This document shows, piece after piece, positions 6,407-40,290 of a stretch of DNA of 64,000 bases. The first letter of the stretch is position 1; every line of letters begins with the position of its first letter. Under the pieces are notes generated by a model. That model made no database searches. It was not told where the DNA came from and saw only the letters and a program-made list of their open reading frames with translations. Source of the DNA: Paucibacter sp. Y2R2-4. GTDB taxonomy: Bacteria > Pseudomonadota > Gammaproteobacteria > Burkholderiales > Burkholderiaceae_C. The stretch covers positions 186,001 to 250,000 of the forward strand of contig NZ_JAJIRO010000001.1 of the NCBI RefSeq assembly GCF_025717535.1. The letters run 5' to 3'. A program made the position numbers and the translations under genes.

Positions 6407-6593
6407 GCAGCGCACTCTAGCAGTCGGCGCAGGGGCTGGGTAGGTCCCGAGACCAAGTCTTGGGTCCAAGGTCCGATTGTGCGTGCAGTTGCGAGATTAG
6501 AAACTCGCGCTCGTTGAAACCGTGTGGGCTGCCCCGCCTTTTCAACACGGCGGCCGGGCCGCCCATCAAACCATTGCCACCCAGGGAATCAAC

Positions 6594-9500
6594 ATGAACA
6601 AGCCAGCATCGCCTCTTCGTCAGTCAGCTACGTCGCGGCAGCCCAGAGCCGCCCGCCGGCCGCGCCCATTGCCGCTGTGCTTGGCCATTGCCGCGCTTTG
6701 CAGCGCGGGCCTGGCCGCTGCGGCCGATCTGACCTGGAAGGGCGGCACGGTGTCCGGCGGGCTGTCGGGACGCATGAGCGTCGGCCAGAACTGGAACCAA
6801 AACACCCAGCCTGCCGCAGGGGACATTTTGCACTTCGGCAGCTCGGCCTTCACGACGGTCGTCCATGATCTGAGCTACCGCGTCTACAACCAAATTTCCT
6901 TCGAGACCGGTGCGAGTGCCTACACGCTGCAGGGTGTGGGCAACAACATCGGGCTCACCAACGGCATCGTCAACAAAAGCAGCAATGTGCAGGTCTTCGA
7001 TTGGGGCAGTACGGCGGGCTTCGTCATCAGCGCGAACCAGACCTGGGACGGTGGCACGGCCGGCATGAGCATCACCGGGGGCATGGACCAACAACATGAT
7101 CTGACCCTGAACAACAAAGTCGCCTACAAGCAACTCGCCGCCACCGCCATCGGCTACGCCGCCAATTCGACCGTCAGCTTGACGATCAATTCCGGCAGCA
7201 GCCACAGCACCGGAACCGAAGTCATTGTCGGCGGCGTTTCTCCGTCCAGCAGCGGCATCATCAATGTGCACGACAAGGACAGCAGCTTTATTGTTGGCAC
7301 CGACCTGAAGCTGGGCGACGTCGGCACCGGCACCTTGCTGATCGACACCGGCGCCAGCGCCTCCAGCAAGAACTTGTACATGGGCAAAAACGGCAGTGGC
7401 GCCCTGACGGTGGCCGGCGTTGGTTCGAGCTTCAGCACCGGCAGCACGATTTTGTACAACGGCTCCGCCAGCATCTCGGCCGGCGGAAAATTCACGGGCA
7501 GCGGAAATTTTGGTATCCGCGGCGCGAACTCGGACGCCAGTGTGACGGTGAAGGATGCGAATTCGCTTTTCAAAGTGGATCAAGGCCTCTATATCGGCAA
7601 CGTCGGCAACGGCCTGCTGCAAGTCAGCAATGGCGCCGGCGCCGATATTGGCAATGGCCTGTTTATCGGCGAAGCCGGCTCAGACGGCTTTGGCGTGCTC
7701 GAAGTAAACGGCCTTGGCTCCAGAGTGACGACCAACAGTGCCTACGCTAACGCGGGCCTCCTGAACATCTCCATGGGCGCCGTCTTTCAAGTCAAGAACC
7801 AGATGAGCATAGGCCAGCTCGGAGACGCCAGCTTTGTGGCTTCGGTAGGCGGGAGCGGGTCCACCTTGAGCGTTGCCCACCTGCTTGACGTGGGCTCCGC
7901 CGGCGCCGGCCGCTTGGATGTCTTGAGCGGCGGCCTGGTCGACGCCGGGCAGTTGGTGATCGGCAATCTGGGCACCGTCAATTTGCAGGGAGGCACGCTG
8001 AAGGTGGGCAGCTTGGGCTTGGGCGGAGCCCTGAACTGGGAGTCAGGTACGCTCAATTTCAGCGGCAATATCAAGTCCAGCGACATCGCCTTCTTGGGCG
8101 GCGCGCCACTGATCACGGCCGGCAAGACGCTCAAGGGCGACGGCGAAATCCGCGTCAGCCCCGGCTACAGCTTAGGGCTGAGCGGCGGCAATCTGCAGGC
8201 CCTGAGTTTTGTGATCGACGCGCAGGGCGCCGCCACCGTCAGCAGCTTCAGCAACTTGAGCGCAGCAAACATCAGCAACCAAGGCAGCCTGACCCTCGCC
8301 GGCGGCCGCATCGAAGGTGCGCTGCTCAATAACGCGGAGATGCTGGGCTCGGGCACGATCGCGGGGGCAGGCGGCTTTAGGAATAACGGATATTTCGAGC
8401 AGACCGGCTTCCTGGAACTCGCCAATAGCGGCTCGAATGAAAACATCGGCTCCTGGAGTATCCAAAAAGGCAAAACGCTGACCCTGCGCGACACGGCGCT
8501 GACCAACCGGGGCTCGATGAATTTTGACAGCGCCAAGATCGACGCGGCAGGTGCCAAGGGTGGCAGCTTCGTCAACGCGGCAGGCGGCACCGTCACCGGC
8601 AATGGTTTGTTCAGCGTGCCGTTTCAGAACGACGGGCGCTTGATCGTGCAGGGCGGCACTTTTGCGCTGACCTATGAGCTTAAAAATAGCGGCCAACTTC
8701 TGCTGAACTCGATTGACGCCAGCGTCACCGGCAGCACCGTCACCAACTCGGGCCGCATTGAGGGTCTGGGGCAGATCAGCAACAGCATCAACAATCTCGG
8801 CACCATCAATGCCAAGGGCGGCACGCTGACCTTGAGCAGCATGCTGAGCAATACCGGCAGCGGCATCGTCTCGGCCAGCCGCGATGCGACGATCTTTGCC
8901 GCCAAGGGCATGACGCCCAATGCCGGCAAGATCCAGCTCTCGGGTGGCACGCTGGACAACGGCGGCTTCGCGCTGACCAACGACCTGGGCGGCTCGATCA
9001 GCGGCTACGGCGATATCCGCAGCGGAATGCTGAGCAACAAGGGGCTGGTGCTGATGAGTGGCGGTGTATCGGCGGTGTACTCGGATGTGCAGGCGCTGGC
9101 GGCGAGCCAGATCATTCTCTCGGGCAATAGCAACACCACCTTCTACGGCAAGGTGGAAGTGAAAAAGGACGCCGAGTTGCGGGTCTCCGAAGGCTCGGTG
9201 GCCACCTTCGCAGCCGAGGTCAAACAGCGCGGTGGCGCCAACATCAACGGTGACGGCAAGATGTTCTACGAGGGCGGCTTGAGCGTGGGCAACTCGCCCG
9301 GCTATGGCTATATCCAGGGCCAGGTGACCTTCTCCGCCAGCAATTTCTACGAGGCCGAGATCGGCGGCATCCATGCCTGCACGGCGGAGCGTTGCGACGA
9401 AGGTTCGCCGCTGGTGGATAGCAGCTATGACAAATTGGTGGTGGGTGGCAAGTTCAAGCTCGGCGGCAAGTTGGTTCTGACGTCTTGGAACGGCTTTGAA

Positions 9501-9740
9501 GCGCAGGCCGGCCAGAGCTTTGATCTGCTGGACTGGGGATCGGTCAGCGGCAGCTTCAACACCATCGATGCGACCGGTTTCAAACTCGCCGCCGGCACGC
9601 AGCTGGACTACAGCCAGCTCTACACCACGGGCGAAGTTTGGGTGACCGCGGTGCCTGAACCACGGAGCTATGCGCTGATGTTGGCGGGTCTGAGCCTGTT
9701 GGCTTGGCGCAAGCGCTTTAGCGCGAGCGCGAGCGCCTGA
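6594..9740 (+). CDS. Large PEP-CTERM protein with T5SS/PEP-CTERM-type repeats
   Basis: This is a 1048-residue exported protein. The start at ATG 6594 (MNKPASPLRQ) follows an AGGGA-like ribosome site; the frame also opens upstream at 6522. A long n-region rich in Arg precedes a hydrophobic signal helix ending near ALCSAGLAAAA. The body is Gly/Ser/Asn-rich with many units of the type GTLLIDTGASA or GLLQVSNGAGADIGNG, the kind of repeat found in both autotransporter passengers and PEP-CTERM proteins. Towards the C-terminus are CTAERCDEG and a globular beta domain. The protein ends with VPEPRSYALMLAGLSLLAWRK: the PEP motif, a membrane helix and a basic tail. Such proteins are processed by an exosortase and displayed or secreted, usually with exopolysaccharide. 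No exosortase gene is in the window. Confidence 0.88.
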   Translation: MNKPASPLRQSATSRQPRAARRPRPLPLCLAIAALCSAGLAAAADLTWKGGTVSGGLSGRMSVGQNWNQNTQPAAGDILHFGSSAFTTVVHDLSYRVYNQISFETGASAYTLQGVGNNIGLTNGIVNKSSNVQVFDWGSTAGFVISANQTWDGGTAGMSITGGMDQQHDLTLNNKVAYKQLAATAIGYAANSTVSLTINSGSSHSTGTEVIVGGVSPSSSGIINVHDKDSSFIVGTDLKLGDVGTGTLLIDTGASASSKNLYMGKNGSGALTVAGVGSSFSTGSTILYNGSASISAGGKFTGSGNFGIRGANSDASVTVKDANSLFKVDQGLYIGNVGNGLLQVSNGAGADIGNGLFIGEAGSDGFGVLEVNGLGSRVTTNSAYANAGLLNISMGAVFQVKNQMSIGQLGDASFVASVGGSGSTLSVAHLLDVGSAGAGRLDVLSGGLVDAGQLVIGNLGTVNLQGGTLKVGSLGLGGALNWESGTLNFSGNIKSSDIAFLGGAPLITAGKTLKGDGEIRVSPGYSLGLSGGNLQALSFVIDAQGAATVSSFSNLSAANISNQGSLTLAGGRIEGALLNNAEMLGSGTIAGAGGFRNNGYFEQTGFLELANSGSNENIGSWSIQKGKTLTLRDTALTNRGSMNFDSAKIDAAGAKGGSFVNAAGGTVTGNGLFSVPFQNDGRLIVQGGTFALTYELKNSGQLLLNSIDASVTGSTVTNSGRIEGLGQISNSINNLGTINAKGGTLTLSSMLSNTGSGIVSASRDATIFAAKGMTPNAGKIQLSGGTLDNGGFALTNDLGGSISGYGDIRSGMLSNKGLVLMSGGVSAVYSDVQALAASQIILSGNSNTTFYGKVEVKKDAELRVSEGSVATFAAEVKQRGGANINGDGKMFYEGGLSVGNSPGYGYIQGQVTFSASNFYEAEIGGIHACTAERCDEGSPLVDSSYDKLVVGGKFKLGGKLVLTSWNGFEAQAGQSFDLLDWGSVSGSFNTIDATGFKLAAGTQLDYSQLYTTGEVWVTAVPEPRSYALMLAGLSLLAWRKRFSASASA

Positions 9741-11965: not shown

Positions 11966-12649
11966 TCAAGCGTCGGCGTACTTGATCGAGCACCCGTAGG
12001 GCTTGGTCGTGGCTTGCGTGGGCTTCTTGCCAGCGGCCAGATCCTTCAGGGCCAAGCGCACATAGTTGTCGGCCTTGGCCACGTCTTCCACCTTGTTGGA
12101 GGCGATGCTGTCAATGCCGCCCTTGTAGACCAGCTGTCCGTCGGGATTGATGATGTAGAGATGCGGCGAGGTTTGGGCGCCGTAGAGCTTGCCCAGCTGG
12201 CCGGTCGGGTCCAGGAGTGTGGCGGTGGGCGCAGCACCACGCTCGGTGTTGACCTTGAGGGCCGTGGGGCCGTCCACAAAGCCTTGCTTGCCAGGCGCCG
12301 AGGAAATCACTTGCAACCAGACCACACCTTGGCCGGTGGCGTCTTTTTGCAGGGCTTGCAGATTGCCGCTGCCGTAGTGCTTCTTGACGTAGGGGCACTC
12401 ATGATTGGTCCATTCCAGCACCACGGTCTTGCCGCGCAGGCTGCTCAAGGAGAGGCTGCGGCCCTCGGCCGTGGTGGCGGTGAAGGCCGGGGCGGCTTGG
12501 TCCACCGTGGCCGCGTTGCTGCCGGACTGGGCCTGGCTGAGCAGCGGCGTGCCCAGCAGACCCAGGGCTAGGCCGAGGCCGCCGGCGGCGCGTGCAAACT
12601 GGCGGCGGCCTGCGGCCACTGTGAGTGGAGATGACTTGATTCGATTCAC
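11966..12649 (-). CDS. Tat-type exported thioredoxin-fold (redoxin) protein
   Basis: The 227-residue product has a twin-arginine-like leader (GRRQFARAAGGLGLALGLLG) with cleavage near SQA. The mature part is an AhpC/TSA-like thioredoxin fold: GKTVVLEWTNHECPYVKKHY holds the single N-terminal Cys, LLDPTGQLGKLYGAQTSPHLYIINPDGQLVYKGGID is the C-terminal half of the fold, and a second Cys sits in KPYGCSIKY near the end. These two Cys positions are characteristic of a widespread family annotated simply as thioredoxin family protein. It probably reduces a peroxide or disulfide in the periplasm. The gene follows the DsbD-like gene by about 70 bp with an AAGGAG ribosome site, and a DsbD homologue is a natural electron donor. 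Last gene of the minus-strand unit. Confidence 0.85.
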   Translation of the reverse strand: MNRIKSSPLTVAAGRRQFARAAGGLGLALGLLGTPLLSQAQSGSNAATVDQAAPAFTATTAEGRSLSLSSLRGKTVVLEWTNHECPYVKKHYGSGNLQALQKDATGQGVVWLQVISSAPGKQGFVDGPTALKVNTERGAAPTATLLDPTGQLGKLYGAQTSPHLYIINPDGQLVYKGGIDSIASNKVEDVAKADNYVRLALKDLAAGKKPTQATTKPYGCSIKYADA

Positions 12650-12717: not shown

Positions 12718-14934
12718 TCAAGCCTCGCCCGCGCTGGGCTTGGCTGGAGGCGCGCCTTTTTTTGCATCCTCCAGGGCTTGCAAGACCAAGCCTGGGGTCA
12801 GCAACTGCGGCAGAACCTGAGGTGATGAGCTCAGGCCTGCGGGATAGAACAGATACAAGGGCACGCCGCTGCGGCCATGCTCGGCCAGCAAGGCCGAGAT
12901 GCGCGGGTCTTTGCGGGTCCAATCGCCCTTCAGATAGACCACGCCTTCGCGAGCAAAGGCCTGATGCACGCTGGCCTGGCTGAGCGCCACTTTCTCGTTC
13001 ACCAGGCAACTGATGCACCAGGCGGCCGTCAGATTGACGAAGACCGGCTTGCCTTGGGCCCGCAGCTCACTCAGGCGCTCCGGCGTGTAGGGTTCGAAGG
13101 TCGCTTGTGGGGTCTGCGGTGTCTGCTGGGCGAGCGAGGACGGCGAGCCGCTGCCCTCAGGCAAGGCGCTCGACTGCAAAAAGGCCAGGCCCACCACGAC
13201 GCCCAGGCTCAACACCGTTGCGAGCTGCGTCAGGCGCCGGCCCTTTCCCGGGCGAATCTCCCGAGCGATGCGATGCAGCCAGGCCGCCAGGGCCAGCAAA
13301 GCCATACCGCTCAAACTCAGCAGCACGGCACTGGGGCCGCCTTGTTGGGCCAGCACCCAGACCAGCCAGATCGCCGCGCCATACATAGGGAAGGCAAAGC
13401 CCTGTTTGAGCCGCTCCATCCAAGCCCCGGGGCTCGGCAGGCGGGCTTGCAAAGCCGGCCAGTTGCTCAAGACCAGATAGGGCAGGGCCAGGCCCAAGCC
13501 CAGGCTCAGCAACACCGCCAAGAGCACCGGCGCCGACTGGCTCAGGGCGTAAGCCATGGCCGCACCCATAAAAGGTGCCGTGCAAGGCGTGGCCACCACG
13601 GCCGCCAGCACGCCGCTGAAGAAACTACCGGCATAGCCCTCCTTGGCTGCCAGCTCCTGGCCCAGTCCGGCAATGCCTCCGCCCAGTTCCAGCAAGCCCG
13701 AGAGACTCAAGCCCAGGCCGAACAAAAGCCAGGCCACGCCCAGCACAAACAAAGGTGACTGGAACTGAAAGCCCCAGCCGACCTCGGCGCCGGCGGCCCG
13801 CAAACCGATCAAGACCGCCGCCAGCAGCGCAAAGCTGAGTAGCACCCCCGCGCTATAGGCCATGCCATGACGCCGAGCCTGAGCGGGGTCGCCATGGGCC
13901 TGGCCCAAGAGCGACAAGGCCTTGATGGACAGCACCGGGAAGACGCAGGGCATCAGATTCAGGATCAAACCACCGGCTAGCGCCAGCAGCAAGGCCAAGG
14001 GCAGCCCCAAGTCCAGCGGTGCAGATGTCGCTGAGGCTCTTGAAGGCAGCGGCGCCGAAGCCAGTGGTACCTCGATCTGGTAGGCCTGACGTGCGCCGGC
14101 TTGGGTTAAGACCAGCACACCGCGCAGCGGCTGGGCCGCCTTCAGCGGGGCTTCACCTGGAGTGAGCTTGAGCTGCCATTGCTGGCTTTGACGACGCAGC
14201 TCTTGCGGCGCATTGTGTTGCAGCGGCCCCCATTGCTCAGCGAAGAACTCCGCCTGCGGTGCGTCTTTGCCGGAAGCCTCTTGCACCGGCCAGCGCAGCA
14301 GCAATTGAGAACCCTCAGAGTGCAGGCTCAGTGGCCAAGGGGCGGTCTTGGGCAAACGCGCCTGCGCCAGCGTCAAAGCGGCTTGGCCTTCGGCATCTGC
14401 TTGAGCCCGGGCTTGCACCGGCAGCGCGATGGACAATTCAGCCTCTTGCGGCAAGCAGATGTCTTTGCAGACCAGCCAAGACACCTGTGCTTGCAGCTGC
14501 AGGGCCCGGTTCTGGGGCCAGTTGGCAGGCAGGCGAATTTCGGTGATCAGGTCCACCTGATCGGCATAACCGTAATTGCTGACGGGCCCCAGGCTGAAGC
14601 GTTGCGGCGCGGGCCATTGCAGCTCAGAGGCTTGAACCCCCTCGGGCAGGCGCCACTCGATGCGCGTGGCTTGGCCCGAGTCGCCCGGGTTCAACCAATA
14701 AGTGTGCCAATGCGGCGCAATGGTCTGGCGCAGCAGCAGATGAACGGTTTGGCCCGGCTGCAGCACCCGGTGGCTGCTGAGCAGGCGAAGCTGGACCTCC
14801 TCGCTGCCTGCGGCAGGCGGCGGCGCGGCACTTACCGCCTGCAGACCGCTAGCGACGAGCAGAACGCCGATCATGGCGAGCAAGCGCCTAAAGCTGAAGC
14901 CGACGCCGACGCCGAGGCCGAAACCCATGCGCAT
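12718..14934 (-). CDS. DsbD/ScsB-like protein-disulfide reductase
   Basis: A 738-residue inner membrane protein. After a signal sequence comes a periplasmic N-terminal domain (about 40-290) of the DsbD-alpha/ScsB type with paired Cys in WLVCKDICLPQ. A transmembrane core follows, carrying the two redox Cys of the family in NLMPCVFPVLSIKAL and VATPCTAPFMGAAM. The C-terminal thioredoxin domain has the CXXC motif AWCISC. The family carries electrons from cytoplasmic thioredoxin to periplasmic thiol proteins. The stop of the upstream gene and this ATG overlap as TGATG, so translation is probably coupled; a GTG one codon earlier (14937) is an alternative. Likely clients are the adjacent redoxin, the cytochrome c maturation route or other cluster proteins. 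Confidence 0.9.
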   Translation of the reverse strand: MRMGFGLGVGVGFSFRRLLAMIGVLLVASGLQAVSAAPPPAAGSEEVQLRLLSSHRVLQPGQTVHLLLRQTIAPHWHTYWLNPGDSGQATRIEWRLPEGVQASELQWPAPQRFSLGPVSNYGYADQVDLITEIRLPANWPQNRALQLQAQVSWLVCKDICLPQEAELSIALPVQARAQADAEGQAALTLAQARLPKTAPWPLSLHSEGSQLLLRWPVQEASGKDAPQAEFFAEQWGPLQHNAPQELRRQSQQWQLKLTPGEAPLKAAQPLRGVLVLTQAGARQAYQIEVPLASAPLPSRASATSAPLDLGLPLALLLALAGGLILNLMPCVFPVLSIKALSLLGQAHGDPAQARRHGMAYSAGVLLSFALLAAVLIGLRAAGAEVGWGFQFQSPLFVLGVAWLLFGLGLSLSGLLELGGGIAGLGQELAAKEGYAGSFFSGVLAAVVATPCTAPFMGAAMAYALSQSAPVLLAVLLSLGLGLALPYLVLSNWPALQARLPSPGAWMERLKQGFAFPMYGAAIWLVWVLAQQGGPSAVLLSLSGMALLALAAWLHRIAREIRPGKGRRLTQLATVLSLGVVVGLAFLQSSALPEGSGSPSSLAQQTPQTPQATFEPYTPERLSELRAQGKPVFVNLTAAWCISCLVNEKVALSQASVHQAFAREGVVYLKGDWTRKDPRISALLAEHGRSGVPLYLFYPAGLSSSPQVLPQLLTPGLVLQALEDAKKGAPPAKPSAGEA

Positions 14935-15509
14935 CACTTCAAACGGGATTGAACCGCGGCGAGGCCGGCCAAAGCGCAGGCCTCGTCGTTCTCAGAACCC
15001 CGTGCGCCGCCGACGCCCACGGCGCCGATGATTTGCTCGCCCACGCGCAAGACGATGCCGCCGGCGCGAGCGTTCAGAGCCGGGTTGGCGGCCAGCTGAT
15101 CGCCCAGGGCCTTGTCAGACTTGGCTTGCTCGCCCAAGGCGCTGGTGGCGGCTTTGAATTGCAAAGCCGTCAAGGCTTTGTTGGTGCTGGACTGAACACC
15201 GCGCGCCGAAGCGCCGTCCGCCGCGAGCAGCACTTTGTGAACCCCTGCGGAGTCGAGCACGCTCACCGCAATGCGCTGCTGGCGATCGCTGCAACTCTGC
15301 AAGGCCACGCGAGCCAGCTCCAAAGCCTCGGCGAAGGCGGGGCCTCGTGCCGGCGGCACCGGTGGGGGCGCGGAGGCTGCTGCAACAGGAGCAGCAGGCG
15401 TTCCTGCAGCAGTAGCGGCGGCAGGCGTCTGGGCACCAGCAGGACTCGCGACAAAACAGACTGCGCCAAGGCTCAGCAGGGCAGGGGCGAACAGGTTCTT
15501 GGAAGCCAT
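14934..15509 (-). CDS. Exported GlcG/HbpS-like (DUF336) protein
   Basis: The ATG at 15509 (MASKNLFAPALL) gives 191 residues with a signal peptide cleaved near AGA, an Ala/Pro-rich linker and then a DUF336 domain. The domain shows LELARVALQSC, the central GASARGVQSSTNKALTA and the C-terminal GGIVLRVGEQIIGAVGVGG, the conserved glycine-rich core. Members bind haem or small molecules (HbpS, GlcG-like); none has a firmly known reaction in this setting. The frame is open upstream to 15728, but that extension overlaps the cytochrome gene and has no signal peptide. It overlaps the DsbD-like gene by TGATG. Confidence 0.82.
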   Translation of the reverse strand: MASKNLFAPALLSLGAVCFVASPAGAQTPAAATAAGTPAAPVAAASAPPPVPPARGPAFAEALELARVALQSCSDRQQRIAVSVLDSAGVHKVLLAADGASARGVQSSTNKALTALQFKAATSALGEQAKSDKALGDQLAANPALNARAGGIVLRVGEQIIGAVGVGGARGSENDEACALAGLAAVQSRLK

Positions 15510-15576: not shown

Positions 15577-16209
15577 TCAACGCGATACGCTGGCCGCAGG
15601 CGTTTGAATGGGGGCCGGCCATTGCGGCGTCTTCGCGCCGGGGTACCAGTAGCGGCTGTGGCATTGCTCACAGGCTTGGTCGATGCGCTCACCAATGGCG
15701 AACAGTCGCTGAGCATCGCGCGCATCAATCGCCGCTAAAGCTTGCAAGCCGGTGTGCTGCAGCTTGGCGGCGGCAGCGGCGAAGGCCGCCGGGTCTTTGG
15801 CAATGGCCGCCTCGATCTGCTCGGGCGAGGAAATGCCAGGCACCTCGTGGTCTTCCAAGCGCACACCGGCTTGTGCCACCGCGCGCCCCGGCATAGCCAG
15901 CAGATTCGCTGATTCGATCAGGCGCAGCGCGTGCTGGCGCAAGGCCAGCCACTCGGCGTCATCGGCCGGAGCATGTTGCACCTCGCCCTTGGCGCTGACC
16001 TCGGTGGCCACGGCTTCCCACAAGGCATCGGCCGAGGGGTCGACCAGGCTCTGCATCAGCTCTTGAATGCTGGCTTTGACCTGAGGACCTGGCGAGCCTT
16101 GAACGGTTGGGCTGGCCTTGGGCTCCGGGTGGCAGGCCACCAGACTCAAGCTCATGCAAAGAAGCAACGGCAGGGCGGCGGATCGCAACTTCAACGCAGG
16201 CACTTGCAT
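15577..16209 (-). CDS. Cytochrome c lipoprotein, c'-like
   Basis: This 210-residue product starts at ATG 16209, which overlaps the stop of the upstream membrane protein gene as TGATG. The leader ends with a lipobox (SLSLVAC), so the mature protein is probably anchored by lipid at the periplasmic face. The remainder is helical, and a single haem-binding motif CEQCH lies close to the C-terminus, followed by SRYWYPGAK. This arrangement resembles class II (c') cytochromes, which are four-helix bundles with CXXCH near the end. It is a plausible electron carrier for the envelope redox cluster. Partner and potential are unknown. Confidence 0.8.
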   Translation of the reverse strand: MQVPALKLRSAALPLLLCMSLSLVACHPEPKASPTVQGSPGPQVKASIQELMQSLVDPSADALWEAVATEVSAKGEVQHAPADDAEWLALRQHALRLIESANLLAMPGRAVAQAGVRLEDHEVPGISSPEQIEAAIAKDPAAFAAAAAKLQHTGLQALAAIDARDAQRLFAIGERIDQACEQCHSRYWYPGAKTPQWPAPIQTPAASVSR

Positions 16210-16736
16210 CAGATGAACCCAATCGCGCGCCCGGCCAGACCGGTGCCGGTCCACAGCAGCAAAGAAGCCAGGGCGCCAACACGGGCCAGCGCGGGCAAGC
16301 TTTGCAGGTCATGGGCAGGCTGCTCCGACTCTGCAGTAGCCGGCTTCTCTGCACCCACGGGGCCCTTCAGCAACAGATGCGTCAAGCTCGCTTGCAAGCC
16401 CACGGCCAGCAGTAGCAAAAGCAGCTTCAATTGCAGGGCAGGGTTGGCCGCATAGACCACGGCGTTGGACACAAACATCGCGGCGCCACTGATCACCACG
16501 GTGAGCAAGCCATGGCGCTGCAAAGGTCGAGCCAACTGGGCCACCTCTTGCGGGCTTTGCTGGCGCAGGCCCAGATTGAACAAGCGCAAGGTCAGCAAGA
16601 GCACGGCGGTCAGCAAGACCAACAGGCCAATGATGTGCAGCAATTGAAAAGCGATCACCACCAAGGGGTCGGAGCCGCGCAGCAACTGGCCCACCGGGCT
16701 GTCTTGTACGGCTTGCAATACGGAATTCAGACTCAT
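16209..16736 (-). CDS. DUF6644-like inner membrane protein (second copy)
   Basis: A 175-residue protein with about four hydrophobic helices, including VVIAFQLLHIIGLLVLLTAV, QLKLLLLLLAVGL and the terminal LLWTGTGLAGRAIGFI. Its layout (Gln/His at the first helix, Phe/Leu-rich loop, small C-terminal helix) parallels the neighbouring 163-residue protein, and the two read as diverged paralogues. It may be a quinone- or haem-linked membrane partner for the cytochrome, as His residues sit in the first and third helices, but that is inference. Start at ATG 16738-proximal 16736 follows the upstream gene by 18 bp. Confidence 0.7.
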   Translation of the reverse strand: MSLNSVLQAVQDSPVGQLLRGSDPLVVIAFQLLHIIGLLVLLTAVLLLTLRLFNLGLRQQSPQEVAQLARPLQRHGLLTVVISGAAMFVSNAVVYAANPALQLKLLLLLLAVGLQASLTHLLLKGPVGAEKPATAESEQPAHDLQSLPALARVGALASLLLWTGTGLAGRAIGFI

Positions 16737-16754: not shown

Positions 16755-17246
16755 TCAGAGATAGGGGATCAAGCGGCCGGTGATCAGCACACCGCTCCAC
16801 AGCGTCAGCGAGGCCAGGCCCGCCAGGCGCACCGGCGTGGGCAGACGCAAGGCCTGACCCCATTCGATGGCGCGCGGTGCCAGTCGGGTCTCAAACACCA
16901 GGGCATTGGCCAAGGCCAGCACCGTCAGCACCAGCTTGGCCACAAAGGCGGGGTTGAACAAAATCTTGGCAGCCTCTGACCAGAACAAGAGTCCGCCGGT
17001 GATGAAGGTCAGGGCGAAGCCGCCGAAGATCCAGGGTCGCAACTGCCGCAGCACTTGATGCGCCGGCACTTGGCGCAGCAGCAGGCCGAGCAAACGGAGG
17101 TCGGCAATGGCCAAGAGGCCAAAGGACAGGGCCAAGCCGAGCAGGTGGGCGCCCTCAATCAACGGAAAGGCGAGCGCTGATTCGGCCAGGGCCAAGCCAA
17201 CGCGACTTTGTTCAATGGCCTCGGCCCATGCAAGCAGTTGCGACAT
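16755..17246 (-). CDS. DUF6644-family inner membrane protein
   Basis: The 163-residue product begins MSQLLAWAEAIEQSR and has four predicted membrane helices: FPLIEGAHLLGLALSFGLLA, IFGGFALTFITGGLLFW, KLVLTVLALANALVF and the C-terminal LTLWSGVLITGRLIPYL. The His in the first helix (EGAHLLG) and the family pattern suggest DUF6644, a family without known function that is typically found next to DUF6152-type proteins, as here. It lies 8 bp after the rhodanese gene and 18 bp before its paralogue, so it is within one operon. Confidence 0.78.
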   Translation of the reverse strand: MSQLLAWAEAIEQSRVGLALAESALAFPLIEGAHLLGLALSFGLLAIADLRLLGLLLRQVPAHQVLRQLRPWIFGGFALTFITGGLLFWSEAAKILFNPAFVAKLVLTVLALANALVFETRLAPRAIEWGQALRLPTPVRLAGLASLTLWSGVLITGRLIPYL

Positions 17247-17914: not shown

Positions 17915-17931
17915 TGCAGCTTCTGTGCCAG
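17915..17931 (-). promoter_or_regulatory. Sigma-54-type promoter of the rhodanese-DsbD unit
   Basis: On the minus strand the sequence reads CTGGCACAGAAGCTGCA. GG and GC are separated by exactly ten bases, with the near-consensus -24 element CTGGCAC and a -12 element CTGC. Transcription would begin near 17904, about 120 bases before the rhodanese ATG. Two further sites of this form lie at 21805-21821 and 22211-22226. Confidence 0.6.
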
Positions 17932-18078
17932 CTTTTTCGAGTCGCCTTGTTCTTCAGTCGTCCCCGCTGCTCAAGGGGCTCCCAAGCCCTAAGCGCTTGA
18001 TTTCAGGCCTGTTTTTTGGGGGTGGGCTTGCGCTCGCCATGGCCCGGTCTTTTGGCAAAGGCCGCAAAGCCGCTTCTG

Positions 18079-18098
18079 GCTGTTGAATTGGCAACAGC
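18079..18098. promoter_or_regulatory. Inverted repeat, candidate activator (UAS) site
   Basis: GCTGTTG (18079-18085) and CAACAGC (18092-18098) are perfect inverted repeats with a 6-bp spacer, giving the form TGT-N10-ACA. It lies about 150-165 bp upstream of the -24 element at 17931, a normal distance for a sigma-54 activator. The 10-mer TTGGCAACAG within it recurs inverted at 22006-22015 between the other two sigma-54-type promoters. Confidence 0.45.
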
Positions 18099-18226
18099 GC
18101 AGCAACAAGGCACTGGCGGCTCCGGTACAGCGGTGTAGCCAACTCTCATCGAGCCGCCAGTCCTCCAGCGATTGGGCAAAAAAATAGGCCGACCCCAAGA
18201 CGGGATCGACCTGCAAAGGCACAAGA

Positions 18227-18280
18227 CCAGATGCGGCGGCATGCATTAAAAGCCGCCGCAAACACAGCCACCGCATCTGG
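18227..18280 (-). promoter_or_regulatory. Long hairpin with alternative pairings
   Basis: CCAGATGCGG (18227-18236) and CCGCATCTGG (18271-18280) are perfect inverted repeats. Within them GCGGCGGC (18233-18240) and GCCGCCGC (18252-18259) form a second perfect stem. The two pairings share four bases, so an RNA could form an outer stem plus bulged inner stem or switch between them. It lies 75 bp after the stop of the preceding gene and may be its terminator. Confidence 0.45.
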
Positions 18281-18354
18281 CTTGTACTCGGTCACGCACA
18301 CAGGGCACGTGGATTGTTTAGAAGACCTGCTGGACCCGATTGATGGGCCCTGAC

Positions 18355-19359
18355 TCAGCGACGCGCCGTAGCCACCCCGCCAAAACCTCCGTTGTTCTCA
18401 TGGCAGATACGCTCTTCACGTTCGATGATGCGTTCGCTGCCGGCATGATTGGCCAGCGTGGTCTGAAAATGCCAGCCGTCGGGCGCATCGGCCTCGGTGT
18501 AGCGCCGCACCGGGATGGTGGCCGTCCAGGGGCGGCTGTAGATGCTGGGGTCGGTGAAGGTGGCGATGTAGTTGAAGCGCTGACCATTCGGAGCAAAAAC
18601 ATAACGTTCAGCCACCTGGGTGTTCTCGCCGCTGAATTCGCCGGTGCGGCCGAACAAGGCTTTACCATTGCTATTGCGCACATCGACCACCAAGGTGTTG
18701 CCTTCCCAATGTCCCCGTGAACCCGCGTTCCAGAGCTTGATGTTGTCCGGCAGATGCGGCTTGTCATCCAAATGCACGATGCGCGAGCCCGAGTCGAACA
18801 AGAACAAGACATAGCCCGGGTACTGGCGGATCTCGAAACCATGCCACATGAAGCTCTTGGGCACGCCGCCCGGGGCACAACGCGCCAAGGGCTCGATGTA
18901 CTGAGGCTGCTTGGGGTTGGCGAAGTTGGCGGCAAAGTCTTGCTGCGCCTCGCGAGCCCAGGGCAGGAAGGGCACCTGGCCATCGGCCGGATCGCTGACT
19001 CGACTGGGCGCGCGCTCGCTGCGCGGCCGCTCAGCAGCGCGCTCCGGCCTGGCCCGCTCGGCCGCGCCAGGCTGGCGCCCTTGCGGGTCGGTGAAGTTGC
19101 TGTGGTTGCCAATCGTGTTGGACCAATGGCCTTGCACATCGGGTTGCCCATCGGCCAAGCGCGCGCCGGTCCAGGCTTGCTCGGCAATTGCCGGGAAGCT
19201 GCTTTCGCGACGCAGTCCGCCGTTGCCCGGCGCGTTTTGCGCCAGGCTCAGACTGCTGCTCAAGCTACCTAGGCTGCCCAAGGCCAGGCAGATCATCAAC
19301 AGGCGCGGACCCAAGGGCCGTGCAGCCCCAAACGGTCTATTTGCGCTGCGTTGCGACAT
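18355..19359 (-). CDS. Secreted protein of unknown function, paralogue A
   Basis: The 334-residue product starts at ATG 19359 (MSQRSANRPFG), inside the end of the upstream paralogue gene (23-bp overlap). The frame is open much further upstream (to 19710), but that part is antisense-like shadow coding. A signal peptide ends near LSLAQ. Conserved stretches include PDVQGHWSNT, RVSDPADGQVPFLPWA, ARCAPGGVPKSF, EIRQYPGYVLFLFD, GHWEGNTLVVDVRN, and near the end ERICHENNGGFG. About 60 percent of residues match the neighbouring paralogue by eye. The family is common in proteobacteria and Acidobacteria but has no known function. A periplasmic beta-rich sensor, binding protein or enzyme are all possible. 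Confidence 0.85.
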   Translation of the reverse strand: MSQRSANRPFGAARPLGPRLLMICLALGSLGSLSSSLSLAQNAPGNGGLRRESSFPAIAEQAWTGARLADGQPDVQGHWSNTIGNHSNFTDPQGRQPGAAERARPERAAERPRSERAPSRVSDPADGQVPFLPWAREAQQDFAANFANPKQPQYIEPLARCAPGGVPKSFMWHGFEIRQYPGYVLFLFDSGSRIVHLDDKPHLPDNIKLWNAGSRGHWEGNTLVVDVRNSNGKALFGRTGEFSGENTQVAERYVFAPNGQRFNYIATFTDPSIYSRPWTATIPVRRYTEADAPDGWHFQTTLANHAGSERIIEREERICHENNGGFGGVATARR

Positions 19360-20320
19360 TGCCGAAGCCTCCGTTGTTCTCATGGCAGATGCGTTCCTCG
19401 CGTTCCAAGATCGGCTCCTTGCCGGCATGGGTGGCCAAGGAGGCCTCGAAATGCCAGCCGTTCGGTGCGTCGTCCACGGTGTAGCGACGCGCCGGGATGG
19501 TGGCCGTCCAGGGGCGGGTGTAGACGCTCGGGTCGGTGAAGGTGGCCACATAGTTGTAGCGTTTGCCATCCGGCGCAAAGACGAAGCGCTCGGTGATCTG
19601 CACGTTCTCGCTGGCGAACTCGCCAGTGCGGCCGAACAGCGCTTTGCTATTGTTGTTGCGCACATCCACCACCAAGGTATTGCCTTCCCAGTGGCCGCGC
19701 GAATCGGCATTCCAGAGCTTGACGCTGTCGGGCAGATGCGGCTTGCCGTCCAGATGGATGATGCGGGTGCCCGAGTTGAACAAGATCAGCACATAACCTG
19801 GGTATTGGCGAATCTCGTAGCCATGCCAGATGAAGCTCTTGGGCACACCGCCCGGCGCGCAACGAGCCAGCGGCTCGATGTACTGAGGCTGCGTCGGGTT
19901 ATGAAAGTTCTTCAAGAACTCTTGCTGCGCGGCACGTGCCCAGGGTTGGAAGGGCACCTCACCATCAGCCGGGTCGCTGACCCGGCTGGGCGCGCGCTGC
20001 TCACGCGGTGGCAGCGGCCGAATATTCGGGTTGTTGCGCACCGGCGCGCCGGGCACGCCGCCTTGCGGGTCGGTCCAGTTGTTGTGGTTGGCCACCGTGT
20101 TGGACCAATGACCTTGCACATCAGGCTGGCCATCGGGCAAGCGCGGGCCTTTCCATGGGCCGGACGCAATCACCGCGATGCGTGTCTCCCACTGACCACC
20201 GGCCGGTGCGGGTTGGGCCTGGCTGCTCGCCGGGGCCAGCGAAGCGGCCAAAGTCGCCAATGCCGCCACAGCAAGGGCCGAGGCGCGCCAGACGGGCGCG
20301 GAGTTCAGGGCTTGCGACAT
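19337..20320 (-). CDS. Secreted protein of unknown function, paralogue B
   Basis: The product is 327 residues from ATG 20320 (MSQALNSAPVWRAS), with a strong AAGGGGG ribosome site 8-13 bases upstream. A signal peptide ends near SSQAQ. The mature sequence parallels paralogue A throughout (PDVQGHWSNTVANHNNW, ARCAPGGVPKSFIWHGYE, GHWEGNTLVVDVRN, ERICHENNGGFG), so the two arose by tandem duplication. It begins 14 bp after the third related gene. Conserved His, Glu and Cys in the C-terminal ERICHEN motif and Trp/Glu in GHWEGNT would be the residues to test for ligand or metal binding. Function unknown. Confidence 0.85.
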   Translation of the reverse strand: MSQALNSAPVWRASALAVAALATLAASLAPASSQAQPAPAGGQWETRIAVIASGPWKGPRLPDGQPDVQGHWSNTVANHNNWTDPQGGVPGAPVRNNPNIRPLPPREQRAPSRVSDPADGEVPFQPWARAAQQEFLKNFHNPTQPQYIEPLARCAPGGVPKSFIWHGYEIRQYPGYVLILFNSGTRIIHLDGKPHLPDSVKLWNADSRGHWEGNTLVVDVRNNNSKALFGRTGEFASENVQITERFVFAPDGKRYNYVATFTDPSVYTRPWTATIPARRYTVDDAPNGWHFEASLATHAGKEPILEREERICHENNGGFGNVATQRK

Positions 20321-20334
20321 GCTCGTCACCCCCT

Positions 20335-21243
20335 TCACTGTGCGGCAGCGCTGGCGGCGGCCGGCGGCTTGGGTGGGTAGTAGGCGTCGTATGCGTGGGT
20401 GAAGCAGTAGTTCTCGATCAACTGAAAGTTCTTCTCCCGATGACGGTGCAGCAGCACGCTCAGCTCCCAAGGCCGGCTGAAGACTTTTTCATCCGCCACA
20501 CGGGCCTTGTATTCCAGCGTGTTGGCATCCAAAAAGGTCCAGCGCTCCACCACATGCAGGGCGTCGCTGTGGAAGTTACCGGCGCGGTCCAGCCAGGTGC
20601 CGTCGTTGAAATGTTTCACATCCACTACCAGGGTGTCGCCTTCCCAACGAGCGCGCGAGTCGCCCAGCCACCAGTCATTCGGCTCCTTGGGGTGATCGGT
20701 GTTGTTGGTGTGGATGGTGCGCACCGTGTGACCGAATTGATGAACCAGGGTCAGGTCACGATCACGCTGAAAAATCTGGAAAGGCTCGGGCGTGTAGACA
20801 CTGCGCGGCACACCTGGGGTGTAGCACTTCAAGCGCGGATCTTCACTCAGTCGATTCTCGAAGTTCTGTTTGCGCTGCGCCAAGGCCGAGGGCAGATAGG
20901 GCAGGTAATGGCCCTCCACCACGCCGGGGCCGGGTGGGGCGTCTGGCCGACCGGCATGCGGCTCGAGGTCGAATTCGGCGGCGCTGGTGGTCTGCCAGAT
21001 ACCTGAGAAGTCCGGCCGGCCATTGGCCGCGCGTGGAATCTTGTTGAGGTCTTGCTTCTTGCTCGCGGCCTTGGAGGCAGGCTTGGCCGTCGCTTTAGGT
21101 GGAGTGGCACTTGCCTCTGCCGCCATGGACGAGCTCACGCCCGCCAAGAAGAAGGCTCCGAGCAGCGCCAAGCTCAGGGCGTGGATACGAGTCTGGGTGA
21201 GCGGGGCAAGTCGGACGAGAGGATTCAGAACATTGGGTTTCAA
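20335..21243 (-). CDS. Secreted protein of unknown function, distant paralogue C
   Basis: This 302-residue protein appears to start at a TTG (21243), because GGAG lies nine bases upstream and no ATG precedes the signal peptide in frame. The signal peptide ends near SSSMAA, followed by an Ala/Lys-rich linker. The mature domain begins RPDFSGIWQTTS and shares the fold pattern of paralogues A and B: YTPGVPRSVYTPEPFQIFQR, RWEGDTLVVDVKHFND, and NYCFTHAYDAYY at the C-terminus. It is clearly related but much diverged. It lies 65 bp after the DUF6152 gene and 14 bp before paralogue B, within one unit. Confidence 0.82.
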   Translation of the reverse strand: MKPNVLNPLVRLAPLTQTRIHALSLALLGAFFLAGVSSSMAAEASATPPKATAKPASKAASKKQDLNKIPRAANGRPDFSGIWQTTSAAEFDLEPHAGRPDAPPGPGVVEGHYLPYLPSALAQRKQNFENRLSEDPRLKCYTPGVPRSVYTPEPFQIFQRDRDLTLVHQFGHTVRTIHTNNTDHPKEPNDWWLGDSRARWEGDTLVVDVKHFNDGTWLDRAGNFHSDALHVVERWTFLDANTLEYKARVADEKVFSRPWELSVLLHRHREKNFQLIENYCFTHAYDAYYPPKPPAAASAAAQ

Positions 21244-21307
21244 GAATGAGGTCTCCGCAAAAATGAGGGCAGGCGCAGGGCTGAATGAGGCCTAACTCAG
21301 GCCGAAT

Positions 21308-21739
21308 TCAGGGCACGGCCGGCACATCGGGCGCGCCGCCGGTTTGGAAAGTGCGGCCATCACCCAGGGTCACCACACTGGCGTAGGCAAAAGGTTTGCC
21401 GTTCTTGGAGCGAAAACCTTTGATCGCCACCTCGGTGCCAGGAGGCAGAGAAGATTTGCTCAAACCCTTTTGCTGCAGGCTGAAAGGCGCACCGAACTCG
21501 AAACCCCAATTGGTGACCTGGCCCTTGGCGTCTTTCACGTCCACGTACAGCCAGCTGTGGGGATTGACCCAGGTGATCTTGGTGACCTGGCCCTTGAGTT
21601 CGACCGGTTGGTCGCCATCAAACTCCGCGGCAAACGCATGGTGGGCGTTCACCGGTGTATTGCACAAGAGCGCAAGGCCGGCCAAGGCCAAGCCGGCACC
21701 GATACGGCGGTTCAGCAATTGAGGGCGGAACAAGTTCAT
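21308..21739 (-). CDS. DUF6152-family periplasmic protein
   Basis: The 143-residue product starts at ATG 21739 (MNLFRPQLLNRR). A signal peptide ends NTPVNA, which would leave a mature protein beginning HHAFAAEFDGDQPVELKG. The remainder is a small beta barrel with KITWVNPHSWLYVDVKD and GTEVAIKGFRSKNGKPFAYAS, the DUF6152 signature. A mature N-terminal His pair is typical of copper-binding secreted proteins, so metal binding is a fair hypothesis, but this family has no established function. It is the first gene of the four-gene minus-strand unit and lies 55 bases below the predicted start of the sigma-54-type promoter at 21805-21821. Confidence 0.85.
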   Translation of the reverse strand: MNLFRPQLLNRRIGAGLALAGLALLCNTPVNAHHAFAAEFDGDQPVELKGQVTKITWVNPHSWLYVDVKDAKGQVTNWGFEFGAPFSLQQKGLSKSSLPPGTEVAIKGFRSKNGKPFAYASVVTLGDGRTFQTGGAPDVPAVP

Positions 21740-21804
21740 GAAAACGTCTCCAGTGGCAGTGAGGGGTGCGGCGGCGCGAGTCCGGTCGCGGATGTCCTTC
21801 CTTA

Positions 21805-21821
21805 CGCAAACGCTGTGCCAA
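21805..21821 (-). promoter_or_regulatory. Sigma-54-type promoter of the DUF6152 unit
   Basis: On the minus strand the site reads TTGGCACAGCGTTTGCG: GG and GC are ten bases apart, the -24 element TTGGCAC matches consensus and the -12 element TTGC is perfect. Transcription would start near 21794, giving a leader of about 55 bases before the DUF6152 ATG at 21739. This is the best of the three matches in the cluster. Confidence 0.68.
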
Positions 21822-22004
21822 CTCTGCAGCGGTGCGAAGGCTGGGCTGAAGCTCAGCGCCTGGCTTTCACGCCACAACCCCGAAACACCGATGCCTTCGG
21901 ACTTCTGAGCTGCCTTTCATCTGTGCACGCCCTCGTTTGAGGCGCCTTTGAGGCGGTCGACTGGATGACTAAGCGCAGCGAGCGCAGGACCTGTTTGGCG
22001 CTGG

Positions 22005-22057
22005 ACTGTTGCCAAAACAGAGGCGTGCTGCTGATGGACTGCTGCCTTCGCAACAGT
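22005..22057. promoter_or_regulatory. Paired inverted motifs, candidate shared activator site
   Basis: ACTGTTGCCAAAACAG (22005-22020) and, inverted, CTGCCTTCGCAACAGT (22042-22057) match at 13 of 16 positions. A further partial copy, CTGTTTGGC, is at 21991-21999. The block lies almost midway between the two divergent sigma-54-type promoters, about 155-235 bp from each -24 element, where an enhancer-binding activator would sit. No such activator gene is in the window. Confidence 0.42.
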
Positions 22058-22210
22058 TGGCGGCAAGGGCGATCGCGCGATAGGGCTTAACAAAGCCAAT
22101 GACTATCCGGGCTGAAGTCGTTTCACCAGGCCCGTAAGAGCCCGCCCAGCCGCTGTGGAGCCCTGCACAGCCACATGCTGCTCACTCTGAAGCGAAGGCT
22201 TCGAGCCGAC

Positions 22211-22226
22211 TTGGCACGAATGCTGC
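22211..22226 (+). promoter_or_regulatory. Sigma-54-type promoter of the TonB receptor gene
   Basis: TTGGCACGAATGCTGC has GG and GC ten bases apart, a perfect -24 element (TTGGCACG) and a -12 element CTGC one base off consensus. Transcription would start near 22238, about 67 bases before the receptor ATG. A 12-bp palindrome, GCAAAGCTTTGC (22237-22248), lies right at the predicted start. Confidence 0.62.
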
Positions 22227-22304
22227 GAAAGACGTCGCAAAGCTTTGCATTTTCTCTATTCGTCTTTTCTCTTCTCTTCAACTTAGCTGCGACTCAACTT
22301 CGAT

Positions 22305-38598: not shown

Positions 38599-39537
38599 CT
38601 AGGTTATGCGTCGGCGATAAAAGGCAAGAAGACCAAAGCCAATGCCGAAAAGCAAATAGCTCTGTGGCTCAGGGACGGCAACGACGGCATGCGAAAACAA
38701 AGACTCAGCAGTCGTATCAAAGGAATAGCCACTGGGCACGTAGACCTTGGCTGAAGCGGTGTTGAGGGCATCGATAGTGCCGCCAGATTGACTGGACGCA
38801 ATAGCAGCAGACAACAGGCCGTTTTGGAGAATGATCCATTGGCCAGGCTTGACGAGGGTAGTCAGGCTGACGGTGCCAAGGATGTTGTCCGGCGAATTGC
38901 TGAGAGGGTTCACATGAGCCCCGGCAAAACTGTGATTTACCGGGCCGTTGTTGAGTTCTTGGTCTGTGGTTTGGAGGACCTGGACTTGACCTGAGGTCTG
39001 CAGAAAGGAAAGCACGACGGTATCGCGTTCCAGAGAGTCGCCATCGAACGAATTTCTGATGTCAAGAGAAACACCCCCGGCTAGATTGAGGCTAGCGTTG
39101 CCGGGGAGAAAACTGGAGAACTTGCCATGAAAGTTCAGTTCGAAAGTGATGGGCACAGCCTCGGTGGATGAGGCAGACGGGCCATGAAACACCGAATAGG
39201 CGCCTAAAGAACCAAAGGCCTGGAGGTAGGGGGTGCCTGGCAAGGATGTCGGAAGGCTGTAGTCGAGGTAGGTACGCAACTGGGCGTTCGGTTCATCCAC
39301 ACTGACGCTGGATGTGAGTGAAATTCCGTTGGACAACTGGATGGGGGCGAGATTTAGGTTAGAGGCCTTGGACCCTGCAAAGCGCAAGAGCTCAGTGCTG
39401 CCATCCGCGAAGCCCGGTGATCGAAGGATCTGGTTGACGCTGCCACTTTCTGGCACTGCCGCACTGGCACTGATGTGGGCCAGGAGTAGCAACGGGGCTA
39501 GCAACCGGGGGGCCGAGTGGGGGCAAAGTTTGCGCAT
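38599..39537 (-). CDS. Small PEP-CTERM protein
   Basis: The 312-residue protein starts at ATG 39537 (MRKLCPHSAPRLLAP) with a signal peptide ending near SASA. The mature part is Ser/Asn-rich, beta-like and without cysteine. It ends VVAVPEPQSYLLFGIGFGLLAFYRRR: PEP box, membrane helix and basic tail, the exosortase sorting signal. Start at 39591 is possible but places a polar leader before the signal. No enzyme motif is visible. The product is probably released or retained at the cell surface. It appears monocistronic, converging with the oxidoreductase gene. Confidence 0.85.
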   Translation of the reverse strand: MRKLCPHSAPRLLAPLLLLAHISASAAVPESGSVNQILRSPGFADGSTELLRFAGSKASNLNLAPIQLSNGISLTSSVSVDEPNAQLRTYLDYSLPTSLPGTPYLQAFGSLGAYSVFHGPSASSTEAVPITFELNFHGKFSSFLPGNASLNLAGGVSLDIRNSFDGDSLERDTVVLSFLQTSGQVQVLQTTDQELNNGPVNHSFAGAHVNPLSNSPDNILGTVSLTTLVKPGQWIILQNGLLSAAIASSQSGGTIDALNTASAKVYVPSGYSFDTTAESLFSHAVVAVPEPQSYLLFGIGFGLLAFYRRRIT

Positions 39538-40290
39538 AGTGGCCTCGATGTCGAAAAGATCGGATGGAGTCAAAAAGTTCAGATCGCGCACAACGCGAGC
39601 AAAAGTGCGGGGGCACGTCTTGGGTGGACGCTCACTGGGCCAAGTCGCAGAGGCATGTCAATCCAAAGCCGGGCGGCGTGAAGTTGCGCGGAGTCTAGAA
39701 GTGAGCTTGCCGAGCTGAATCATCAATATTGATGGAGTTCAAGACGCGAGGGGCGTCAAAGCATGTGTCACACAATGGCGGACTAGGTTATTTCCCGTCA
39801 CAGGCTGAAGAACGTCATCAGGAACGAGCCTCGTTCGACGATCCGATAGAGGACTGTCGCCGACGACCGCTTATGACCGGAAGTCTGAATTCGACGTTAC
39901 GCCTGGAAGCAGCCCTTGGCCGGCCACTTTGCACGAACCGAATTGCACCTTTCCGGTGAGCCTACGAGCTGGCCGAGAAGATCAAGCGGAGCAAATCCGC
40001 GGCAAGTAGCCGTTAGGCAGCTCCATGCCCCGAGCCGAAATTCGATGCCGAAGGTGGGGGTCAGTAGCGCAGCGGTTGCAGTCATTCGGCGCCGGTTGCC
40101 GCCTTGCTTGCGGCAAGCATGAGGTTTTATTCTTCGGGCAGTTCAATTTGGTCAAACTCTTCCGCCAGGCTGCGGTGGCCGTATTCCTAAAGTGCATGGT
40201 TCTAAATCAAACGCAACAAAGCCAAAAGCGTCAATTTAGTCGACAATGTGTATTATGTAAAATCACATATCGATGGCTGGCCCGCGGATT
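39538..40290. other. Intergenic region without a confident gene
   Basis: Roughly 750 bp upstream of the PEP-CTERM gene and downstream of the ParA gene. Short frames on both strands lack ribosome sites and family features. An AT-rich section (about 40200-40275) holds an ATGTG/CACAT inverted repeat around TATTATG, and may include a promoter or terminator. The first part probably contains the PEP-CTERM gene promoter. Confidence 0.4.

Follow-up and report, generated by a model that had tools for sequence, protein, structure and literature searches.

The 64,000-nucleotide stretch of the Paucibacter sp. Y2R2-4 genome analysed here (the window) contains a gene cluster made up of a rhodanese-to-redoxin unit, a DUF6152 unit and a gene for a TonB-dependent receptor, each preceded by a site of the sigma-54 (-24/-12) type (Table 1). 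Pfam searches bore out the gene names of the first-pass annotation of this DNA, and the intergenic spacing within each unit is short or overlapping, which fits the three transcription units that it had proposed. The three genes downstream of DUF6152, which we call P1, P2 and P3, do not match any Pfam family. P2 and P3 (18358-20320) are tandem paralogues that are 70% identical. An AlphaFold2 model of P2, made with 16 sequences, had a mean predicted local distance difference test score of 45.5, too poor for a fold search, and a sequence search of the PDB gave for P2 a single match (E=0.43), which was disregarded. A full-text literature search found no paper on DUF6152, and searches on SfnR, on sulfate starvation and TonB and on low-sulfur proteins, judged by titles and the opening of abstracts, found no description of this cluster.

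Table 1. Features of the cluster, with positions in the window (aa, amino acids; UAS, upstream activating sequence; nt, nucleotides)
Feature	Position	Strand	Remarks
Sigma-54 (-24/-12) site 1	17931-17915	minus	CTGGCAC-AGAAG-CTGCA, exact match; 5' of rhodanese-to-redoxin unit
Sigma-54 site 2	21821-21805	minus	TTGGCAC-AGCGT-TTGCG; 5' of DUF6152-P1-P2-P3 unit
Sigma-54 site 3	22211-22227	plus	TTGGCAC-GAATG-CTGCG; 5' of TonB receptor
Inverted repeat CTGTTG-N6-CAACAG	18080..18097		Candidate UAS of site 1, 149 nt upstream
Inverted repeat CTGCTG-N6-CAACAG	22039..22056		Candidate UAS common to sites 2 (218 nt) and 3 (155 nt)
CTGTT-N5-AACAG	22006..22020		Possible second, differently spaced dyad in divergent gap, exact match
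AhpC/TSA-type redoxin	11966..12649	minus	PF00578
DsbD-like thiol:disulfide interchange protein	12718..14937	minus	PF11412, PF02683, PF13899
HbpS-like protein	14934..15509	minus	PF03928
Possible cytochrome c'-like protein	15577..16254	minus	PF01322, weak, below cut-off
DUF6644 membrane protein b	16209..16736	minus	PF20349
DUF6644 membrane protein a	16755..17246	minus	PF20349; no Cys, no internal Met
Rhodanese-like protein, 175 aa	17255..17782	minus	PF00581; no Cys, no internal Met
P3	18358..19359	minus	No Pfam match; paralogue of P2
P2	19337..20320	minus	No Pfam or NCBIfam match
P1	20335..21243	minus	No Pfam or NCBIfam match
DUF6152 protein	21308..21739	minus	PF19649
TonB-dependent receptor, 888 aa	22305..24971	plus	PF00593, PF07715; 1 Cys, 0 internal Met

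The three sites are real: all are exact matches, with the coordinates and strands that the first-pass annotation had assigned to them. They contain the GG-N10-GC core within YTGGCAC-N5-YTGC and are the only matches to TGGCAC-N5-YTGC on both strands of the window, site 2 being also the sole match to TGGCAC-N5-TTGC. All three are correctly oriented and lie inside the two gaps that precede the first genes of the units, with 134 nt (rhodanese), 67 nt (DUF6152) and 79 nt (TonB receptor) between the -12 element and the start codon. A lone match of this kind is weak evidence, because the genome (5.13 Mb in nine contigs) holds 65 of them as against 39 for a reversed-pattern control, and many single matches are thus due to chance. 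Among the 30 of the 65 matches whose surroundings were fetched, seven were outside credible predicted genes (including L014 and L015, which are covered only by an antisense open reading frame and an over-extended start), and three of these seven are sites 1-3. At the genome-wide rate, 0.014 matches would be expected in the two gaps (575 and 565 nt), and the probability of at least three is about 5e-7, orientation not yet counted. The first-pass annotation had judged such a set unlikely to arise by chance, and this figure agrees with it. Together with the paired dyads and the cross-genus conservation at the same promoters described below, it makes it extremely improbable that the sites are chance matches in GC-rich intergenic DNA.

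Each site is paired with a dyad of the form CTGYTG-N6-CARCAG 149-218 nt upstream, the copy at 22039 being shared by the divergent pair. Judged by its sequence, a candidate activator site is therefore present 60-230 nt upstream of all three. The dyad of site 1 has a longer form, GCTGTTG-N6-CAACAGC, at 18079-18098. Over the window as a whole, CTGTTG-N6-CAACAG with up to two mismatches occurs at chance level (3 matches vs 3.2 expected), and the best two matches (0 and 1 mismatch) are those at 18080 and 22039, exactly in the two promoter gaps. The 18080 copy is the sole exact one in the genome, in which 16 places (this one included) match with up to one mismatch, compared with 6 for the control. 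For the differently spaced CTGTT-N5-AACAG, the number expected across the whole window is 1.1 if one mismatch is allowed. When a site score of at least 8 and a dyad 60-230 nt upstream were required, the window gave three strict pairs, while 20 shuffles of it gave none, or a mean of 0.05 if one mismatch was allowed in the dyad; since both the weights of the site score and the alphabet of the dyad were picked after the window and the first relatives had been seen, the shuffles test the pattern and not its choice.

Among 399 genomes of the order, three others contain close relatives of DUF6152 (at least 61%). A scan of genome contigs yielded 18 loci, from Duganella, Pseudoduganella, Derxia, Zoogloea, Aquabacterium, Steroidobacteraceae and others, and with the loci of genomes G025 and G072 this made 20 other clusters for comparison (L077 and L093 are from one and the same genome). 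Site-dyad pairs were found in five of the 20 with the strict rule and in seven when one mismatch was allowed, and 13 had none. The first-pass annotation had named absence of the sites from orthologous clusters as grounds for refutation, and on this count 13 of the 20 clusters speak against its proposal and seven do not. The pair-positive clusters are the four of the Duganella clade, G025, G072 (G+C about 50%, from a different family) and L095, in which the pair is away from the DUF6152 promoter. The DUF6152-side promoters of L085, L088, L090 and L092 carry pairs, as do L075/L076, and the rhodanese promoters of L088, L090 and L092 have a site and dyads, with GGGCAC or GGGCAT replacing TGGCAC. 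These sequence comparisons give good support to a joint RpoN regulon, because all three sites share an enhancer-like dyad and because the combination of site and dyad is found again at orthologous promoters of other genera. In Derxia gummosa, the TonB receptor gene of the cluster follows a gene for an arylsulfotransferase (L093:3749-5176), which is another link to sulfur.

A candidate for the activator was found in the relatives. Directly beside the DUF6644a gene, locus L085 encodes a 366-aa protein with a sigma-54 activator domain (PF00158) and no receiver domain, for which no NCBIfam activator model was over cut-off among the matches listed. We take it to be SfnR-type from its gene context and from what is known of SfnR; no published SfnR binding site was found that could be set beside the dyad. 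Close homologues (51-81% identity, at least 350 bits) are present in 16 of 21 cluster genomes (9/11 and 7/10 in two sets). In G434, G435 and G436 the distance between the activator gene and the rhodanese promoter is about 5 kb, and the operon between them encodes a serine-acetyltransferase-like protein, a small helix-turn-helix protein, an SrpI encapsulin and an aminotransferase-V (cysteine-desulfurase-like) protein. In G025 and G072 the activator has as neighbours an alkanesulfonate monooxygenase (TIGR03565, 621 bits vs a cut-off of 518), DszC/SfnB-like flavoproteins (below cut-offs), a flavin mononucleotide reductase and binding proteins of the ATP-binding cassette type, and several of these genes sit behind site-dyad pairs. 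In the congeners G401 and G403 the SfnR-type gene stands with a sulfatase, and a pair-bearing promoter precedes genes for a binding protein, ExbB, two ExbD, a rhodanese that shares 57-58% identity with that of the window, and cytochrome b561; these two genomes thus combine a rhodanese of the window family with an SfnR-type gene, a sigma-54 site and a dyad. Overall, the neighbourhoods of 16 SfnR-type genes, some of which had already been seen before the count was made, contained 11 pairs in 288 kb (in 7 of the 16), as compared with 1 pair in 325 kb of 88 controls, a twelvefold difference. Three Duganella-clade loci (L223, L224 and L225) carry beside an SfnR-type gene a second, diverged set of a TonB receptor, DUF6644, two P1-like genes (27-40% identical) and a DUF6152 gene; over the part that could be aligned, the TonB receptors of this set are free of Cys and Met.

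A link to sulfur is also apparent in the composition of the proteins. Sulfur-sparing is an established property of proteins made in starvation. With the first residue left out of all counts, the TonB receptor contains a single Cys and lacks Met over its 887 residues, the rhodanese and DUF6644a have neither, DUF6152 has one Cys, and P1 and P2 have two Cys and no Met as counted, the percentage for P1 being one residue higher (an internal Met after a TTG start). The window background is 3.1% Cys+Met, and seven of the eight Cys/Met-poorest among the 49 predicted window proteins of at least 120 aa are members of the cluster; there is no depletion in DsbD (2.2%) or in the cytochrome-like protein (5.2%). 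Sixteen homologues of the TonB receptor, that of the window included, contain 0-0.35% Cys+Met, as compared with 0.73-2.34% in five other TonB-like receptors, only some of which were checked with Pfam. Orthologues of P1, P2 and DUF6152 are Met-poor throughout, while distant homologues of DUF6152 and DUF6644 elsewhere have mostly 1-6%. Outside the cluster, a 330-aa minus-strand open reading frame at 38599-39591 also has a very low content (0.61%).

The regulons of SfnR, SfnR1 and SfnR2 in Pseudomonas (sfnFG, sfnAB, msuEDC), which are sigma-54 activators of dimethyl sulfone and sulfonate use, are a close point of comparison. One study describes a rise of SfnR1 and MsuCDE in sulfur-starved P. aeruginosa (PMC12581299). 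Like those regulons, the present one has a receiver-less sigma-54 activator (in the relatives), -24/-12 promoters with an upstream dyad, and a sulfonate monooxygenase, a flavin reductase and SfnB/DszC-like genes as neighbours of the relatives' activator. It differs from them in its targets (TonB receptor, DUF6152, P1-P3, DUF6644, rhodanese, DsbD and redoxin) and in the lack of an intact activator gene in this genome; by Pfam, the cluster has no flavin monooxygenase, such an enzyme being present beside the activator in relatives. The Family 2A (SrpI) encapsulin with its cysteine desulfurase is presented as a sulfur-starvation nanocompartment in another paper (PMC8049743). The SrpI operon between SfnR-type gene and cluster rhodanese in three Duganella-clade genomes resembles it, but the encapsulin is there a neighbour rather than a member of the cluster, and SrpI was not found in the window's own genome.

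We therefore consider it probable that the three sites are the sigma-54 promoters of one SfnR-type sulfur-starvation regulon for TonB-dependent organosulfur scavenging. We infer the binding to the dyads, the activation or induction, the dependence on RpoN, the sulfur signal, the role in import and the substrate as follows. A receiver-less AAA+ activator of the SfnR type would be made under sulfur shortage, bind the CTGYTG-N6-CARCAG dyads and loop to RpoN-polymerase at the -24/-12 sites. The TonB receptor would then import an organic sulfur source, DUF6152, P1, P2 and P3 would be secreted and bind or process it, and the rhodanese, DUF6644, HbpS-like, DsbD and redoxin proteins would handle the released sulfur and thiol redox.

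Several observations weigh against this interpretation. The 13 clusters without a paired site are a majority of the 20, though nine of their genomes have an SfnR-type gene; with such a gene in all seven pair-bearing genomes, this is a weak trend, which the window's genome breaks. Nine of the 16 SfnR-type neighbourhoods have no pair, including the plasmid loci L259 and L260, which were the last fetched and are unannotated, and the dyad of L257/L258 is part of a more extended hairpin that directly follows the activator gene, so that it could be a terminator. As to composition, the depletion is not uniform: the Cys+Met content of DUF6644a is 1.95-1.97% in clusters of the Duganella type and rises to as much as 3.7% in Steroidobacteraceae, and the TonB receptor of the window, taken alone against a baseline of 1% for outer-membrane receptors, gives P=0.0013 only. 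Clusters that lack sigma-54 sites have TonB receptors and P1/P2 proteins just as poor in Met, and the depletion therefore points to sulfur stress and not to sigma-54. Finally, no intact SfnR-type gene was found in the window's own genome, in which none of the eight strong activators has an SfnR-type C-terminus.

These eight activators, and three weak ones, were obtained by a PF00158 search; five of the eight keep the GA[FY]TGA loop that contacts sigma-54, and an SfnR-type query recovered the same eight at generic scores (best 237 bits). One of the sigma-54 activators of this genome (NtrC, a PilR-like protein, PrsR or the L002/L005 proteins) might serve the promoters in place of an SfnR-type protein, and the signal would then be nitrogen, surface or exopolysaccharide rather than sulfur. 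PrsR, the PEP-CTERM regulator, is over its curated cut-off in this genome, and two papers describe PrsR promoters as sigma-54 sites with an upstream motif (PMC1569441) and a PEP-CTERM/PrsR regulon that is similar in this respect (PMC9850573). However, the targets here are not PEP-CTERM genes, and the same dyad is used in six other genomes tested in which PrsR is not over cut-off (it is so in one of the seven dyad genomes, our own), and PrsR was rejected as the activator. NtrC and PilR-like proteins are disfavoured as well: they are common to the compared genomes, but their C-terminal helices differ from the SfnR-type, and no activator of the window's genome has an SfnR-type recognition helix, in a comparison from which a motif filter had dropped 15 of 48 loci. 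Moreover, when the listed coordinates were compared, the dyads of this genome were not near other sigma-54 sites within activator range. Control by such another activator is thus quite unlikely. The window also encodes, at 6522-9740, a large repetitive secreted protein whose C-terminus looks PEP-CTERM-like by eye, in a genome that has PrsR.

Another explanation is that the cluster and its promoters were acquired horizontally and that the SfnR-type activator has decayed or was never gained, the promoters being now silent. None of the 17 other genomes of the genus that were searched has P2, and a true SfnR-type homologue is present in 2 of 18 genomes of the genus, the window's not being among them. 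A profile of the SfnR-type C-terminus detected in this genome a 62-residue stretch with one internal TGA (contig 1:173082-173267, E=1.2e-7; L235:3083-3268), 31 kb from site 1 and 12.7 kb left of the window, which adjoins a dienelactone-hydrolase gene resembling one inside the L076 cluster. This stretch, which may be a decayed SfnR-type activator or a chance match, was the best match for nine of eleven SfnR-type queries, but the pairwise matches are weak (26-36% identity over most matches, best E 0.001). A long silence would not be expected to leave sites, dyads and reading frames intact, as they are here, and an activator gene could hide in the gaps of the nine-contig assembly. We therefore regard an orphaned relic as doubtful.

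Thus, of the joint regulon under RpoN and an unknown activator that the first-pass annotation had proposed, the regulon has gained a shared dyad and recurrence in other genera, and the activator has been narrowed to the SfnR type; since no intact gene of this type was found in the genome of this strain, the regulon may or may not work there. The activator of this genome may be missing or decayed, and the sites may have become orphans or have come under a different sigma-54 activator. It is possible, though somewhat less likely than not, that DUF6152, P1/P2/P3, DUF6644 and the nearly Met-free TonB receptor make up a new system for scavenging organosulfur at the outer membrane, controlled by sigma-54 and an SfnR-type activator, and that in this species the regulon has outlived or outgrown its activator and is silent or rewired. 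The cluster would then be a natural case of a sigma-54 regulon with its activator apparently missing, and the dyad is a candidate for the DNA code that SfnR-type activators recognise in Burkholderiales. For DUF6152, DUF6644 and P1/P2, families to which no function had been attached, sulfur scavenging would be a testable role.

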